Below, piece by piece: positions 13,768 through 47,182 of a stretch of DNA of 63,116 nucleotides. Position numbers and translations under genes: made by a program. The notes beneath the pieces were generated by a model. The model ran no database searches. It was not told the origin of the DNA and saw only the letters and a list, made by a program, of their open reading frames with translations. The stretch's first letter is position 1. Every line of letters starts with the position of its first letter. Origin of the DNA: Alphaproteobacteria bacterium (GTDB lineage Bacteria > Pseudomonadota > Alphaproteobacteria > Micavibrionales > UBA2020); NCBI GenBank assembly GCA_004297545.1, contig SCTB01000012.1, forward strand, positions 1 through 63,116, read 5' to 3'.

Positions 13768-13870
13768 GTCATGCCCGCCTTGCGCGGGCATCCGTAAGGC
13801 CGTCAGGCCGTCATATGACTCATAAGACGCGTAGACGCGCTTACAGACCCCCGCGCAAGGCGGGGGTGAC
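13768..13870. repeat. Nested palindromic repeat, core type B
   Basis: Two self-complementary hairpins (left ATGCCCGC...GCGGGCAT, right ACCCCCGC...GCGGGGGT) in inverted orientation flank a core with GGCCGTCAGGCCGTCATATG and GACGCG. The same core recurs at 33420 and 47054. The arms are each perfect hairpins but are not fully complementary to each other. Confidence 0.85.
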
Positions 13871-40362: not shown

Positions 40363-41340
40363 TCAGCCGGCTTTTGCCATCGGGTGTTTTTCCGTGGCAG
40401 TTTTCGCCTGATCGCCGACCACTTGCGTGTAGATTTGGGTCGTTGCGATGTCGGCGTGGCCGAGCATTTTCTGCACCGAGCGCAGGTCCGCACCATGTTT
40501 CAGCAGGTGGGTTGCGAAGGCGTGGCGCAGAACGTGCGGGCTGACGCGTTCGGGGTCAATGCCGGCGTTGCGGGACAGCTCTTTCAGGAGCTGCGCGAAG
40601 CGCTGGCGGGTCAGGTGGCCCGATTCCGACGTGCGGGACGGGAACAGCCATTTGCTCTGGCTGTCAGTCCGGTCGGGAAGCAGGAACTTGTTACGGATGT
40701 CCATGTAACCTTTCATTGCCTTTTGTGCGGGCTCGGAAAGGGGGGCCATCCGCTCACGTCCACCTTTGCCCTCGACCGTCAGATAACGGCTCTCGGGACC
40801 GATGGAAGTGAGAGGCAGACCGACCAATTCAGAGACGCGCAGGCCGGTTGCGTAGAGAATTTCAAGCAGCGCCACGAGGCGAACGCTTTCAGGTCCGCCT
40901 TGTTTCTGTGCGGTGGTGATGAGGACCGTAACTTCATCTTCGCTCAGAATTTTCGGCAGGGTGCGTGTTTGCTTGGGGCTTTCGATGGTCGACGTCGGAT
41001 CATCCGAGCGTTTGCCTTCGGAAACCAGGAACCCGTAGAACTGACGCAGCGCCGAGATGCGGCGAGCGATCGTGCGAACGGCCGTTTTGCCGCCGCCCTT
41101 GCTCTTCGCGTTTTCACGTGCTCCGAGTTCGTTGAGGTATGATTTGAGATCATTGGTGCTTGCACCATCGATGTCTTTGCCGCCCTTTTTCAGGAAAGCG
41201 CAGACATCAGCAAGGTCACGCTCATAAGCATGGCGTGTGTTGAGTGCTGCACCGCGTTCGGCGATGAGCATATCGAGGAATGACTCCACGGTCCCGGGAA
41301 GGGGAGCCTTGGGCATTCTTGGACGACCTGGACGAGCCAT
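40363..41340 (-). CDS. xerD: Tyrosine recombinase XerD
   Basis: A 325-aa site-specific recombinase that, with XerC, resolves chromosome dimers at dif. The N-terminal SAM-like domain (TVESFLDMLIAERGAALNTRHAYERDL) precedes the catalytic domain. The catalytic set is visible: Arg in ATGLRVSELVGL, Lys in GKGGRERMAPL, His-x-x-Arg in HVLRHAFATHLL, His in MLGHADIATTQIY, and the nucleophilic Tyr in that last segment. The GSA-like linkers and the C-terminal end are of normal length. Neighbourhood with aroK-aroB supports housekeeping XerD rather than a mobile integrase. Confidence 0.95.
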   Translation of the reverse strand: MARPGRPRMPKAPLPGTVESFLDMLIAERGAALNTRHAYERDLADVCAFLKKGGKDIDGASTNDLKSYLNELGARENAKSKGGGKTAVRTIARRISALRQFYGFLVSEGKRSDDPTSTIESPKQTRTLPKILSEDEVTVLITTAQKQGGPESVRLVALLEILYATGLRVSELVGLPLTSIGPESRYLTVEGKGGRERMAPLSEPAQKAMKGYMDIRNKFLLPDRTDSQSKWLFPSRTSESGHLTRQRFAQLLKELSRNAGIDPERVSPHVLRHAFATHLLKHGADLRSVQKMLGHADIATTQIYTQVVGDQAKTATEKHPMAKAG

Positions 41341-42157: not shown

Positions 42158-42703
42158 ATGACATCCAGCGAAAAAAGCATCGTCCTGGTGGGCCTGATGG
42201 GGGCAGGCAAGAGCCGCGTGGGGCTTGAGCTCGCCCGCCTCATGAAACTGCCCTTTCTCGATGTCGACCGAGAGATCGAGCGCGCTGCAGGCATGAAAAT
42301 CCCCGATATTTTTGAACGACTCGGCGAAAAAGAATTTCGCCTGGGAGAGAAAAAGGTGATGTTGCGCCTTTTATCGGAGGAACAGCGCGTGCTTGCGGCC
42401 GGCGGCGGCGCATTTATTCAGCCGGAAATTCGCGCGGCGGTGAAGGAGAAGGCAATCTCCGTCTGGCTCAAGGCCAATCTGGAAACCCTCGTTGAGCGCA
42501 CGGGGCGCAGCGACAACCGCCCGCTGCTGCGCGGCGCCGACCGCACGGAGAAGCTGCGGGAACTCATGGAAATGCGCTATCCTGTCTACGCCGAAGCGAC
42601 GATCACGGTCGTCACCGACGATCAGACGCCGGCGGCGATGGCGCGCAGGATCATGCAGGAACTGAATGACTTCGAAAAGGGCGGCAACCGCACAAATGGC
42701 TGA
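42158..42703 (+). CDS. aroK: Shikimate kinase
   Basis: A 181-aa P-loop kinase that phosphorylates shikimate at the 3-hydroxyl in the chorismate pathway. The Walker A motif is LMGAGKSRVG (about residues 14-23). The shikimate-binding D-R-E region is DVDREIERAAGMKI. AGGGAFIQPEIR supplies the GGG loop, and RTGRSDNRPLLR is the lid with its conserved Arg residues. The stop overlaps the start of aroB by 8 bp, so the two are co-translated. Confidence 0.97.
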   Translation: MTSSEKSIVLVGLMGAGKSRVGLELARLMKLPFLDVDREIERAAGMKIPDIFERLGEKEFRLGEKKVMLRLLSEEQRVLAAGGGAFIQPEIRAAVKEKAISVWLKANLETLVERTGRSDNRPLLRGADRTEKLRELMEMRYPVYAEATITVVTDDQTPAAMARRIMQELNDFEKGGNRTNG

Positions 42704-43802
42704 GCAGCTGGTCAAGGTGAATACGGGCGGGGGCGCCTATGACATTGTCATCGGCAAAGGCCTTCTGGCGGATGCGGGCCGGCGCATCGGGGAAATGCTT
42801 CCGGGCGCGAAGCTCTGCGTAGTCACGGACGACAAGGTCGCAAAGCTTTACCTCGTCAATTTCATGAAGGCGCTGGAAAACGCGGGGCTGATGTGCACGC
42901 CGCCCGTGATCATCCCTTCGGGGGAGGAAAGCAAGAGCTTCGGGCAGCTACAATATATAATAGACAAGGCGCTCAGCTTTAAGCTGGACCGGAAATCCGC
43001 CATCGTCGCGCTGGGCGGCGGGGTGGTCGGGGACATTGCGGGTTTCGCCGCTTCCATTCTTTTACGCGGTATCCCTTTTGTTCAGGTGCCGACGACGCTG
43101 CTGGCGCAGGTGGACAGCTCCGTCGGCGGAAAGACGGCCGTCAACACGGCGCAGGGCAAGAATCTTGTCGGGACCTTCTATCAGCCGCGGCTCGTGCTGA
43201 TTGATACGGACAGCCTGAAAACGCTGCCCGCGCGCGAAATGAAGGCGGGCTATGCCGAAATACTCAAATACGCGCTGATCGACGACCCGGAGTTCTTCCT
43301 CTGGCTGGAACAGAACGGCAACAAGGTTCTGGCGGGCGACGGCGAGGCCTTGGCTCATGCGATACGCGTCAGCTGCGCCGCCAAGGCCAAGATCGTCGCG
43401 GAGGACGAGCGCGAGCAGAAAGACATCCGCGCGTTGCTCAACCTGGGTCACACTTTCGGCCATGCGCTGGAAGCCATATATAATTATGACGGAAGGCTCC
43501 TGCATGGCGAGGCTGTCGGCATCGGCGTGAGGATGGCTTTCGGGTTCTCGGAGGCGCTGGGCCTGTGCCCGGCATCCGAGACCAAGCAGGTCGCGAAGCA
43601 CCTGGAGGAAAAGGGGCTTATGACAGCGCCGCCCGCGAAGGTCGCGGCCCATGACATGCTGGAGCGGATGCGCGGGGACAAAAAGGCGAGTTCGGGGCGG
43701 CTCACGCTTGTGCTGCTAAGAGGCATCGGCCGGGCCTTCGTGGCGCGGGACGTCGAGGAAGCGAAGCTGAAAGGCTTTCTGGAGGCGCAATGCGGCAAAT
43801 GA
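42696..43802 (+). CDS. aroB: 3-dehydroquinate synthase
   Basis: A 368-aa NAD-dependent enzyme for the second step of the shikimate pathway. Landmarks: IPSGEESKSFGQLQYIID, ALGGGVVGDIAGFAASILLRG (NAD-binding and active-site loop), PTTLLAQVDSSVGGKTAVN, GYAEILKYALIDD, LNLGHTFGHALEA (zinc His), and LHGEAVGIG (zinc His). The ATG at 42696 lies inside the end of aroK (8-bp overlap). A longer frame to 42666 would overlap more and lacks support. Confidence 0.97.
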   Translation: MAEQLVKVNTGGGAYDIVIGKGLLADAGRRIGEMLPGAKLCVVTDDKVAKLYLVNFMKALENAGLMCTPPVIIPSGEESKSFGQLQYIIDKALSFKLDRKSAIVALGGGVVGDIAGFAASILLRGIPFVQVPTTLLAQVDSSVGGKTAVNTAQGKNLVGTFYQPRLVLIDTDSLKTLPAREMKAGYAEILKYALIDDPEFFLWLEQNGNKVLAGDGEALAHAIRVSCAAKAKIVAEDEREQKDIRALLNLGHTFGHALEAIYNYDGRLLHGEAVGIGVRMAFGFSEALGLCPASETKQVAKHLEEKGLMTAPPAKVAAHDMLERMRGDKKASSGRLTLVLLRGIGRAFVARDVEEAKLKGFLEAQCGK

Positions 43803-43815
43803 GAGGAATGAAGAA

Positions 43816-45144
43816 ATGCATTTGACAGGGTATACGGTCCAGATTCTCGGCTTCATCGGGTTGCTGGTGGCGTCCGGATTTTTCGCAGGTGCTGAAACGG
43901 CGCTGACGGGCGCCTCCCGCGCGCGCATGACGGCGCTCGTGAACGACGGCAGCAGCCGCGCGAAACTCGTGCTGGCCCTTCGCGAGAAAAAGGAGCAGCT
44001 TATCGGCACGCTGCTGCTCGGCAACAGTTTCATGAATATCTTCGCGTCGGCGCTCGCGACCTCCGTGCTGGTCCAGATTTTCGGCGAGAAGGGCGTCGTC
44101 ATCGCCACGCTGGGCGTGACGGTCATCGTTTTCGTCTTTGCCGAAGTGCTGCCCAAGACCTACGCCTTGCTGCATGCCGACCGGATGGCGCTTTTCATCT
44201 CCTATCCGGTGCGCATCTTCATCATGCTTTTTTCTCCTGTCACCGTCGCGGTCGGCAAGGCGGTCGAGCTGATCTTCCGGGTTTTCAGCGTGGATACGCG
44301 CGGCTATTCCGCGACCGCGCATGAAGAAGAGCTTCGCGGCGCCATCGAACTGTTCAAGGGCGCCGAACAGGTGCAGGGGCAGGGCGAGGGGCAGGAAACC
44401 GGCGCGATGCTGCGTTCCATCATGGATCTCGCGAACGTCAGCGTCGAAAAAGTCATGGTTCACCGCCGCAACGTGAACATGATCAATATAGACACGCCGG
44501 TTGCGCAGATCGTGAATGAGGTGCTGCACAGCGCTTATACGCGCATCCCCGTGTGGAAAGACAGCCAGGACAATATTATCGGCGTCGTCCATACCAAGCT
44601 TCTGCTGCAGGAACTCAGCCAGTGCAACGGCGATGTCACCCGCGTGGACGTCACCAACGCCATGATGGAGCCCTGGTTCATCCCGGAATCCACCACGCTG
44701 TTCGACCAGCTGCAGGCCTTCCGCCGCCGGCGCGAACACCTGGCCATGGTCGTCGATGAATACGGCGCGCTGACCGGCATGATCACGATGGAAGACGTGC
44801 TTGAGGAAATCGTCGGCCAGATCGACGACGAGCATGACGTCACGGTGCCCGGCGTCCGCGCGCAGACGGACGGGACGTTCATCGTCGACGGCAAGGTGAC
44901 GCTGCGCGACCTCAAACGCGACCTCAACTGGAAGCTGCCGGACGACGACTATGCGACCGTGGCGGGATTGCTGTTGTTCGAAAGCCAGCGCATCCCCTCG
45001 GTCGGCCAGGTTTTCAACTTCTATGATTTCCGCTTTGAAATCCTGAAGAAGCAGCGCAACCAGATCACCCTTGTGCGCGTCACGCCGCCCGTGATTCCGG
45101 CGGAGGCGCCGTCGCTTGCGGCGGAGGCGGTGGGCAGCGCATGA
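43816..45144 (+). CDS. CNNM/CorC (HlyC) family transporter
   Basis: A 442-aa membrane protein with the DUF21-CBS-CBS-CorC_HlyC layout of CNNM/CorB proteins, linked to magnesium or cobalt export. The DUF21 region has about four hydrophobic segments (residues 7-200), including GFFAGAETALTGASRARM, LLLGNSFMNIFASALATS and VFVFAEVLPKTYALLH. Two CBS domains follow (about 215-335: VEKVMVHRRNVNMINIDTP, YTRIPVWKDSQDNIIGVVH; DQLQAFRRRREHLAMVVDEY, GALTGMITMEDVLEEIVG). The CorC_HlyC domain is DGTFIVDGKVTLRDLKRDL to the end. It sits 13 bp after aroB, and its stop overlaps the next start (ATGA). Confidence 0.95.
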   Translation: MHLTGYTVQILGFIGLLVASGFFAGAETALTGASRARMTALVNDGSSRAKLVLALREKKEQLIGTLLLGNSFMNIFASALATSVLVQIFGEKGVVIATLGVTVIVFVFAEVLPKTYALLHADRMALFISYPVRIFIMLFSPVTVAVGKAVELIFRVFSVDTRGYSATAHEEELRGAIELFKGAEQVQGQGEGQETGAMLRSIMDLANVSVEKVMVHRRNVNMINIDTPVAQIVNEVLHSAYTRIPVWKDSQDNIIGVVHTKLLLQELSQCNGDVTRVDVTNAMMEPWFIPESTTLFDQLQAFRRRREHLAMVVDEYGALTGMITMEDVLEEIVGQIDDEHDVTVPGVRAQTDGTFIVDGKVTLRDLKRDLNWKLPDDDYATVAGLLLFESQRIPSVGQVFNFYDFRFEILKKQRNQITLVRVTPPVIPAEAPSLAAEAVGSA

Positions 45145-47042
45145 GCGGGATTGCCGGATATCTGGGCGCATCGCAGCCCCCCTCCATCCTCCGGGCCATG
45201 ACCGGCAAGATGATGCACCGGGGGCCGGACGCGCAGTCGTTTCATGAAGAGGCGCCCGTCTTCATGGGCGTTCGACAGCTGGGCGGGGCGGAAACCGGCG
45301 CAGGCGCTTACGTCGATTCCGACCGTAATCTTGCCATCGTGTTTTCGGGAGAATGCAGCAACCTCCATGAAGAGCGCGACACTCTCGAGAAAAAGGGCAT
45401 GCAACTGGCGGAGGGATCCGCCGCCGAAGTGGTCCTGAGGCTTTATGAGGTCCATGGGGTCGGCTGCGTGAACCGCCTGCGCGGCGCTTTCGTCTTCGCC
45501 ATCCACGACCAGCAAAAAGATCTCGTTTTCATCGCGCGCGATCATCTTGGCGTGAAGCCGCTCTATTACGCGACCTCCCAGTCGGGAACTTTCGTCTTCG
45601 CCTCCGAGATCAAGGCGCTTTTCGAGCATCCCAACCTGTCCGTCGAAGCCGACCTGCGCGGCGTCGACGCGTTCCTGTCCCTTGGCTGCAGCCCCGGGCC
45701 GGACGCCATGTTCAAGGGCGTGCACCAGCTGCCGCCCGGCCATCACATCCTGTGGAATCCCGGCCTGCATGTGATGATCGAGCCCTACTGGCGCTGGGAA
45801 AGTTTCGCCAAACCCGACCCGGTCCTTAAATCCGACGACGATTTCCGCGCGCGTTTCGCCATGCTGTTCGAGGACGCCGTCCGCCAGCAAAGCCCGGATG
45901 CCGGCGTGGTGCTGACGGGCGATGTTGAATCCGCGGCCGTCGCCGCCGCGCTGGCGAAAGCATCCGGCGGTTCCGCGCCTGCCTTCTGCCTCGACCTCCA
46001 TGCGGAATGCGGCGCGCCTTCCCTGGCGGTGGCGGAGAAGCTCGGCCTGAAGGCGGAGCCGGTGGCCTTTGGACCGCATGATCTGGACAAGCTGCCGGAA
46101 ATTCTCTGGGCGCTGGATGAGCCGGTTGTGGATATTTCGGTCGCACCCCTTTACCTGGCCACCCGCGTCGCGCAGAAGAAGGTAAGGGGCGTGCTGCTGG
46201 GCGCCTGCGGCGCGGAAATTCTGGCCAGCCTGCCGGCGCAGGAGCAGTTGCTGGATGCGCGCGACAAGCCGGCGTCGTGGTACAGTATCGCCAAATCCAT
46301 GTATTCGATCGTGCCGCAATCCACTTTCGGAAAGTATCTCGGGTTCGGCGGCAGGATCGGCCCGCGCACCAAGCAAAGGCTTTTCGGCTTCATCGAGGCG
46401 CTGCGCAGCGACGGCCCGTGGCGGCAATACCTGAGCCTCACGTCGATTTTGGACGCGCGCGAAAAGCATGAACTTTATATCGGCGGCATGACGAATGTCA
46501 TGGAAACATTTGTCGACATGCAGAAGGACCCGGAAGGCTGGCCGACGGCCATGTCGGCGCTGGTCGCCGTGCAGCGCACGGGCGGGTTTTTCGACAGCGC
46601 CGTGTCGTCGGCGGAGAAAACCGGGATGTTCAGCTCGGTGGAATGCCGCCTGCCGTTCCTCGATCACCGCCTTGCCGAATTCCTGATCGGGCTGCCCGAT
46701 CACCTGCGCCGGACGCCGGGCCGCAACAAGGTCCTGCTGCGCGACTACCTGGACAAGACGCATCCCGGCCTCCTCCAGCCGGTCGCCGCGCCGGCGGAGC
46801 CGCGCAAATCGCTTCTGGTCGAATGCCTCTCCGCCAGCCCGCTGAAGGAAATGGTGGAAACCTGCCTCTCCGAAACCAGCGTGCGCCGCCGCGAGCTGTT
46901 CGACTGGAAAGCCGTGAAGACAATCCTCGCGGGCTCGAAAACAGATGAAGCCCTCTATGCCCGGCAGGTCTTTGCGCTGCTGATGCTGGAACTGTGGTTC
47001 CGCATCTTCATCGATGGCGAAAAGGGCTGGTTGTCTCGTTAA
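45141..47042 (+). CDS. Asparagine-synthetase-like protein that has lost catalytic residues
   Basis: A 633-aa protein with the full layout of AsnB: N-terminal Ntn amidotransferase domain (1-200) and C-terminal synthetase domain (215-600). Key residues are altered. The N-terminus reads MSGI instead of MCGI, so the glutaminase nucleophile Cys2 is Ser. The ATP-pyrophosphatase P-loop, normally SGGxDSS, reads LTGDVESAA at 258-266. The downstream motif, normally SGDGxDE, reads LGACGAE at 353-359. Structural sequences are preserved (HRGPDAQSF, DHLGVKPLYYA, SVECRLPFLDHRLAEFLIGLP). It is probably a pseudoenzyme or has a new activity. It is translationally coupled to the CNNM gene upstream. Confidence 0.85.
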   Translation: MSGIAGYLGASQPPSILRAMTGKMMHRGPDAQSFHEEAPVFMGVRQLGGAETGAGAYVDSDRNLAIVFSGECSNLHEERDTLEKKGMQLAEGSAAEVVLRLYEVHGVGCVNRLRGAFVFAIHDQQKDLVFIARDHLGVKPLYYATSQSGTFVFASEIKALFEHPNLSVEADLRGVDAFLSLGCSPGPDAMFKGVHQLPPGHHILWNPGLHVMIEPYWRWESFAKPDPVLKSDDDFRARFAMLFEDAVRQQSPDAGVVLTGDVESAAVAAALAKASGGSAPAFCLDLHAECGAPSLAVAEKLGLKAEPVAFGPHDLDKLPEILWALDEPVVDISVAPLYLATRVAQKKVRGVLLGACGAEILASLPAQEQLLDARDKPASWYSIAKSMYSIVPQSTFGKYLGFGGRIGPRTKQRLFGFIEALRSDGPWRQYLSLTSILDAREKHELYIGGMTNVMETFVDMQKDPEGWPTAMSALVAVQRTGGFFDSAVSSAEKTGMFSSVECRLPFLDHRLAEFLIGLPDHLRRTPGRNKVLLRDYLDKTHPGLLQPVAAPAEPRKSLLVECLSASPLKEMVETCLSETSVRRRELFDWKAVKTILAGSKTDEALYARQVFALLMLELWFRIFIDGEKGWLSR

Positions 47043-47053
47043 ATTTGAATTCT

Positions 47054-47161
47054 GTCATGCCCGCCTTGCGCGGGCATCCGGAAGGCCGTCCGGCCGTCAT
47101 ATGACTCGAGTCATGGGACGCGCAGACGCGCTTCCGGACCCCCGCGCAAGGCGGGGGTGAC
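47054..47161. repeat. Nested palindromic repeat, core type B
   Basis: Left arm hairpin ATGCCCGC/GCGGGCAT, right arm hairpin ACCCCCGC/GCGGGGGT. Core GGCCGTCCGGCCGTCATATG, then GACTCGAGTC and GACGCGCAGACGCGC. Located between the convergent asparagine-synthetase-like and coaBC genes. Confidence 0.87.
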
Positions 47162-47182
47162 AAATGAGGCGGGTTATAGTGA

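Follow-up and report, generated by a model that had tools for sequence, protein, structure and literature searches.

The open reading frame described here lies on contig SCTB01000012.1 of assembly GCA_004297545.1, from an alphaproteobacterium of the order Micavibrionales, family UBA2020. The window, i.e. the whole stretch of DNA analysed, is 63,116 nt long, and the frame occupies positions 45141–47042 on the forward (+) strand; it starts with ATG and encodes 633 amino acids with no internal stop codons. It is the last of a run of four genes, aroK, aroB, a CNNM membrane-protein gene and the frame itself, all on the + strand, with a coaBC-like gene (a name inferred from Pfam domains) convergent behind them. 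The protein has the fold of the asparagine synthetase AsnB and shows replacements of catalytic residues in both halves. Being an enzyme homologue that has lost catalytic residues and is conserved under selection, it is termed a pseudoenzyme, here a double one.

Fold and catalytic residues

Pfam detects a GATase_7 domain (103.8 bits) and an Asn_synthase domain (PF00733; 119.6 bits, above the gathering cut-off of 21 bits) in the protein; the closest relative with intact motifs scores 154.3 and 275.4 bits, respectively. The nearest NCBIfam entry is asparagine synthase TIGR01536, at 242.1 bits, which is below its curated cut-off of 267.1. A structure was modelled from an alignment that included 42 homologues, with a mean predicted local distance difference test (pLDDT) score of 87.6 and a predicted template modelling (pTM) score of 0.90. 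The best structural match is the hydroxyamidotransferase TsnB9 (7ylz; Z 34.5, 539 residues, 2.7 Å), which is also the best sequence match in the PDB. E. coli AsnB (1ct9; Z 31.1, 464 residues, 2.9 Å), human ASNS (6gq3; Z 29.0), beta-lactam synthetase (1jgt; Z 28.0) and carbapenam synthetase (1q15; Z 25.1) follow. The fold comprises the two AsnB domains, an N-terminal class II glutaminase and a pyrophosphate-loop synthetase, and has their order and shape in common with AsnB and ASNS over nearly the whole length. The intact two-domain architecture and the 633 open codons put forward in the initial annotation are thus borne out by the frame, the Pfam matches and the model.

The alignment behind the model (A4, 43 rows) was drawn from 80 loci plus one further locus, L004, which gave 78 usable frames and 44 sequences that were not near-copies; L241, with Ser2 but SGGVDS, and the short L236 were excluded. 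Its rows come from relatives whose motifs are mostly intact; the model therefore shows the sequence to be compatible with the fold and does not establish an identical pocket. An earlier model from a two-row alignment reached a pLDDT of 31.4 and was not interpreted.

The available text of one study of human ASNS gives the glutaminase network as Cys1, Arg48, Val52, Asn74, Gly75, Glu76 and Asp96, with Glu414 near it across the domain interface (PMC6748925). In the pseudoenzyme, Ser2 (45144–45146, +) replaces the nucleophilic Cys, and the alignment columns of Arg48, Asn74 and Asp96 hold Gln46, Ser69 (45345–45347, +; the Asn of the NGE motif) and Ala94. Gly70 and Glu71 stand at the places of Gly75 and Glu76, Val52 was left unmapped, and the counterpart of Glu414, read from the PDB sequence alignment, is Glu501. 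In the synthetase half, the SGGxDS pyrophosphate loop has become TGDVES (the remnant TGDVESA, residues 259–265, is at 45915–45935, +) and SGxGxDE has become LGACGAE (the remnant GACGAE, residues 354–359, is at 46200–46217, +). The initial annotation had listed the change of Cys2 to Ser, TGDVESA and GACGAE, and each is found in the frame. TsnB9, unlike the pseudoenzyme, retains Cys2 and SGGxDS in the alignment.

Searches of 55 related genomes and 18 genomes of the family found orthologues with 42–65% identity in nine of the 18. They are present in five of six genomes of genus g1, all three of g2 and the single one of g4, and in none of eight of g3. The g1 genome that lacks the gene (G003, 77% complete) is also without a close CNNM match, so the absence there may be an assembly gap. 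The orthologue of G004 is split across two contigs; its N-terminal part shows Ser2 and the sequence ATGSLES, and it was excluded from the alignment of the eight full-length orthologues, all of which have open frames. No further member of the clade was found outside the family among 142 genomes of the order and 385 of the class (with up to three candidates scored per genome in the class-wide search). Scores fall from above 1000 bits for whole orthologues to 490–507 bits in three g27 genomes, and then to 337 bits and below. The sole genome-contig match, in a Sphingobacteriales metagenome-assembled genome (L004, 25% identity), has Cys2 and SGGIDS intact and is no orthologue. Among the eight matches listed in a plasmid search the best identity is 27.4%; four are annotated as asnB, three are in unannotated records and one has no gene under the match. 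PADLOC gave no match.

The conservation of the altered residues in orthologues, which the initial annotation had proposed to examine, was compared with 59 homologues, chosen by similarity and not a random sample of AsnB proteins. Residue 2 is Ser in five and Ala in three of the eight full-length orthologues and Cys in none, as against 59 of 59 in the comparison set. The Asn of NGE is Ser in six and Ala in two, the Asp of SGGxDS is Glu in all eight (Glu263), and none of the eight retains the Lys or the Phe of KxGF; all four of these residues are kept by every comparison homologue. The second Gly of SGGxDS is also gone in the eight. The same losses therefore occur in relatives, with some branch-specific variation: the Asp of SDxE is retained in three orthologues (G001, G002 and G008). 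Of 34 columns invariant in the comparison rows, the eight pseudoenzymes all keep seven and all lose six. At 57 near-invariant columns they retain a mean of 4.95 of eight residues, compared with 7.68–7.92 of eight for four held-out catalytic groups of eight at comparable columns.

The comparison set consists of 50 loci (L085–L134), new best matches from the order-wide and class-wide searches that include the three sister-group sequences described below, and nine others (L001, L004, L016, L017, L022, L023, L024, L027 and L029); L001, L017 and L023 are AsnB-type paralogues found in genomes of the family to which the window belongs. L015, L018–L021, L025, L026, L028 and L030–L034 lie outside it, and several of them duplicate genes already represented by its rows; L014 and L087 are one gene.

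In a 67-row tree, rooted by midpoint only, the eight pseudoenzymes form one clade (support 100/100) on a stem of 0.83. Their sister group is three g27 enzymes (100/99 for the two together). These g27 amidotransferases (G051, G135 and G136; L085–L087) are 32–33% identical to the pseudoenzyme over the whole length and, unlike it, have every catalytic motif intact. The G051 gene also differs in having no CNNM gene in front. It lies among glycosyltransferase, methyltransferase and sugar-epimerase genes, together with oxidoreductase, fatty-acid-desaturase-like and UDP-GlcNAc 2-epimerase-like genes, a neighbourhood that looks like a polysaccharide or glycolipid cluster. A single pseudoenzyme clade with an intact sister points to one loss of catalysis, most likely on the stem, as judged from sequence.

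Two side observations concern other proteins. L241 (1–2337), on an IMG/VR contig, is an AsnB-like protein of 779 amino acids that starts with MSG, i.e. with Ser for Cys2, and keeps SGGVDS; perhaps it is a glutaminase-dead, synthetase-intact form. On contig C19 of G008, L159 (1474–3279, −) encodes a 601-amino acid Asn_synthase-domain protein, lasso-cyclase-like by eye, in which SGGLDSS is kept and the N-terminal Cys is missing.

Selection and the relocation of constraint

The ratio of nonsynonymous to synonymous substitution rates (dN/dS) is 0.026–0.028 for the G011/G009 pair of pseudoenzymes. For G002/G004 the two parts of the G004 gene give 0.049 and 0.060 (NG86) or 0.024 and 0.041 (YN00). 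More distant pairs have dS values of about 1 or above and say little. The close pairs, at 0.03–0.06 by NG86, indicate purifying selection. The CNNM genes of the same two genome pairs give 0.005 and 0.011–0.023, and selection on the pseudoenzyme is roughly two to five times weaker than on CNNM. The initial annotation had suggested a dN/dS measurement, and had reasoned that normal residues in close relatives and relaxed selection on this copy would speak for recent decay; what is found is shared losses and purifying selection.

The pattern of constraint differs from that of catalytic relatives. Between the pseudoenzymes and four catalytic groups, column entropies show a Spearman coefficient of only 0.08–0.17, whereas the catalytic groups correlate with one another at 0.52–0.67. 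Control sets were 300 identity-matched sets of seven catalytic rows, one of the near-identical G009 and G011 having been dropped. The variability of the pseudoenzymes exceeds that of every one of the 300 in the Arg48 region, NGE, SDTE, the pyrophosphate loop, SGxGxDE, ER.PF.D and KxGF, segments that were defined by motif. The pseudoenzymes are less variable than all 300 at residues 1–10, 141–160, 201–217, 201–235, 573–578 and 615–630, segments picked after the column-conservation data had been viewed. The Lys530 region behaves like the controls (206 of 300 at or below).

Three of the conserved segments have recognizable features. Residues 201–217 (45741–45791, +) form a predicted beta hairpin between the domains that the clade conserves strongly but that varies among catalytic homologues; residues 573–578 (ETCLSE; 46857–46874, +) contain a clade-invariant Cys575; and residues 615–630 (46983–47030, +) are a conserved C-terminal helix, as modelled, and tail. 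In the alignments, sequence constraint has moved away from the active sites to residues 141–160, the hairpin and the C-terminus.

Clade-wide losses, low dN/dS and shifted constraint together indicate an old, selected pseudoenzyme and not a product of recent decay. We consider it probable that this AsnB-fold double pseudoenzyme acts by binding, since it preserves the body while constraint now falls on new surfaces. Its ancestor would have been a glutamine-dependent amidotransferase resembling the enzyme encoded in the polysaccharide-type cluster. Judging from the residues, both glutaminase activity and ATP-dependent amidation would have been lost, and the two-domain body retained, with constraint relocated as described. 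The protein would then bind a protein or a ligand through the surfaces of residues 141–160, the hairpin and the C-terminal helix.

Several points weigh against this interpretation. The gene is dispensable in genus g3, where it is missing from all eight genomes. The largely motif-intact rows of the model's alignment favour the fold of those relatives. The segments 141–160, 201–217 and the C-terminus were chosen post hoc and the control sets overlap, and therefore 0/300 is no p-value. Lastly, charged residues of the synthetase site persist: Lys530 and Arg503 in seven and Asp508 in all eight orthologues. Together with the fixed Glu263 these might allow ligand binding or a remodelled reaction.

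The adjacent CNNM gene

The run begins with an aroK-like shikimate kinase gene (42158–42703, +; Pfam SKI, 160 bits), followed by an aroB-like 3-dehydroquinate synthase gene (42666–43802, +; DHQ_synthase and DHQS_C) and the gene of the CNNM/CorC-family membrane protein (43816–45144, +), with CNNM, CBS-pair and CorC_HlyC domains. The CNNM stop and the pseudoenzyme start overlap in the tetranucleotide ATGA (45141–45144, +); the initial annotation had described the two genes as translationally coupled. No promoter-like + strand site was found within the aroK-to-pseudoenzyme run, and terminator-like sites are no commoner than in shuffled sequence. The overlap requires codon 2 to begin with A, and a Cys codon (TGY) would abolish the CNNM stop; however, g2 genomes have Ala2 without the overlap, so the overlap alone is insufficient to explain the loss of Cys2.

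That the pseudoenzyme is a regulatory subunit of CNNM, or a nucleotide or amino-acid sensor that docks on the CBS-pair/CorC domain and alters Mg2+ transport, is possible but doubtful; this is a narrower form of the binding function favoured above, and the two overlap. Gene order speaks for it. The pseudoenzyme is directly 3′ of CNNM on the same strand in all nine carriers, with the 4-nt overlap in six (the g1 and g4 genomes) and a gap of 62–63 nt in the three of g2; the two proteins would be co-produced. The literature lends some plausibility to a bound regulator: CNNM/CorB proteins are described as binding Mg-ATP at the CBS pair (in the available text of PMC8242095), and eukaryotic CNNMs as forming complexes with PRL phosphatases (likewise PMC6429129). 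PRL is an enzyme-fold protein that acts on CNNM by binding, and is an analogy only: the folds are unrelated, and the pseudoenzyme–CNNM link is known from gene order alone.

Other observations argue against a CNNM regulator. CNNM occurs without the pseudoenzyme in all eight g3 genomes and widely across the order; among the 55 related genomes all have some CNNM match, 47 of them at E < 1e-120. Comparison of CNNM proteins from carriers and non-carriers gave no convincing signature and no segment specially conserved in carriers; only eight columns, scattered along the protein, separate carriers from g3. Carriers keep aroK and aroB upstream of CNNM where the contig extends that far, and the adjacency may therefore be just the inherited end of an old operon. 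In a CNNM tree carriers fall on two branches and g3 on a third, with unresolved branching, so that a single gain and a single loss of the pseudoenzyme are indistinguishable. The closest matches among named CNNM proteins of plasmid records, at 43–47%, come from Sinorhizobium, Methylobacterium and Rhizobium, which points to Alphaproteobacteria. Thus of the initial interpretation, the pseudoenzyme, its kept fold, conserved losses and purifying selection stand, whereas the sensor for the transporter has gene order as its one support, and a direct partnership with CNNM is on the doubtful side.

More specific, and unlikely, is a dedicated regulator of a CNNM/CorB Mg2+ transporter, which would hold a ligand in a remodelled pocket and dock via the hairpin and the C-terminus. 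The putative pocket would consist of the fixed Glu263 and the retained Lys530, Arg503 and Asp508. If true, it would be a bacterial counterpart, with an unrelated fold, to PRL–CNNM control.

Other features of the window are noted here. Long antisense frames at 43702–45171 (−) and 45021–46763 (−), of 489 and 580 amino acids, lie opposite CNNM and the pseudoenzyme and are probably shadows driven by G+C content. A 110-bp inverted repeat at 47053–47162, between the pseudoenzyme gene and the coaBC-like gene, has two abutting 55-nt arms that are 80% complementary. Its core CCCGCGCAAGGCGGG is also paired at 13774/13850 and 33426/33500, and has seven matches with at most two mismatches compared with 0.85 expected; it looks like a dispersed palindromic repeat. 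A tyrosine-recombinase gene at 40363–41340 (−) has Phage_integrase domains and is XerD-like by eye. Its protein is 99.4% identical to that of G005 and about 90–93% identical in other genera; neighbouring genes matched in G005 show about 50–91% identity.

Remaining alternatives and significance

A new enzyme or a metal binder, with the pocket rebuilt on Glu263, Lys530, Arg503 and Asp508 or on His122, His195, His210 and Cys575, is less probable again than the dedicated regulator. Glu263 is found in all eight carriers and in none of 56 catalytic rows, Lys530 persists in seven of eight, and the three His residues and Cys575 occur in every carrier but seldom in catalytic rows. On the other hand, the stretches surrounding the two former active sites rank with the more variable ones in the clade, and the KxGF Lys and Phe are lost throughout.

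Very improbable is a partner or decoy subunit of an active AsnB-type paralogue, like other enzyme–pseudoenzyme pairs. An intact AsnB-type protein does occur elsewhere in the genome of the window (C124). Yet a scan of 15 of the 18 family genomes for further Asn_synthase proteins shows G001 (96% complete) and G002 (99%) to be without another full-length match, their others being weak and partial (24.9–29.9 bits), which argues against a helper role. Recent decay of a normal enzyme toward a pseudogene, which would predict the variable active-site segments, is ruled out, short of sampling error, by eight open frames of eight, dN/dS of 0.03–0.06, clade-wide losses and parts more conserved than in catalytic relatives.

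AsnB relatives with one half lost are known: in beta-lactam and carbapenam synthetases the glutaminase is lost and the synthetase half is active. These have the AsnB fold in common with the pseudoenzyme, but theirs is a type with intact synthetase motifs, and in the pseudoenzyme SGGxDS, SGxGxDE and KxGF are all altered. AsnB and ASNS have the Cys nucleophile, oxyanion Asn, pyrophosphate-loop Asp and KxGF Lys and Phe, all of which the clade is without. A 2026 preprint, in its available text, reports ATP-binding residues to be highly conserved among five AsnB-like enzymes (PMC13060819), and the clade contrasts with these. For human ASNSD1, also an AsnB relative, the available part of PMC9140057 gives no more than a prediction by similarity. 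In the open-access literature no AsnB-family member was found reported with both halves lost yet kept by selection, nor any paper joining asparagine synthetase or class II glutamine amidotransferase with pseudoenzymes, or treating a pseudoenzyme together with a bacterial amidotransferase operon.

Automatic pipelines tend to label members of the AsnB family asparagine synthetases, and the pseudoenzyme clade would be mis-annotated in this way. The clade offers a clear example of an enzyme fold converted into a presumed binding protein. Its intact sister group permits comparison, and the analysis points to concrete surfaces and a candidate partner.

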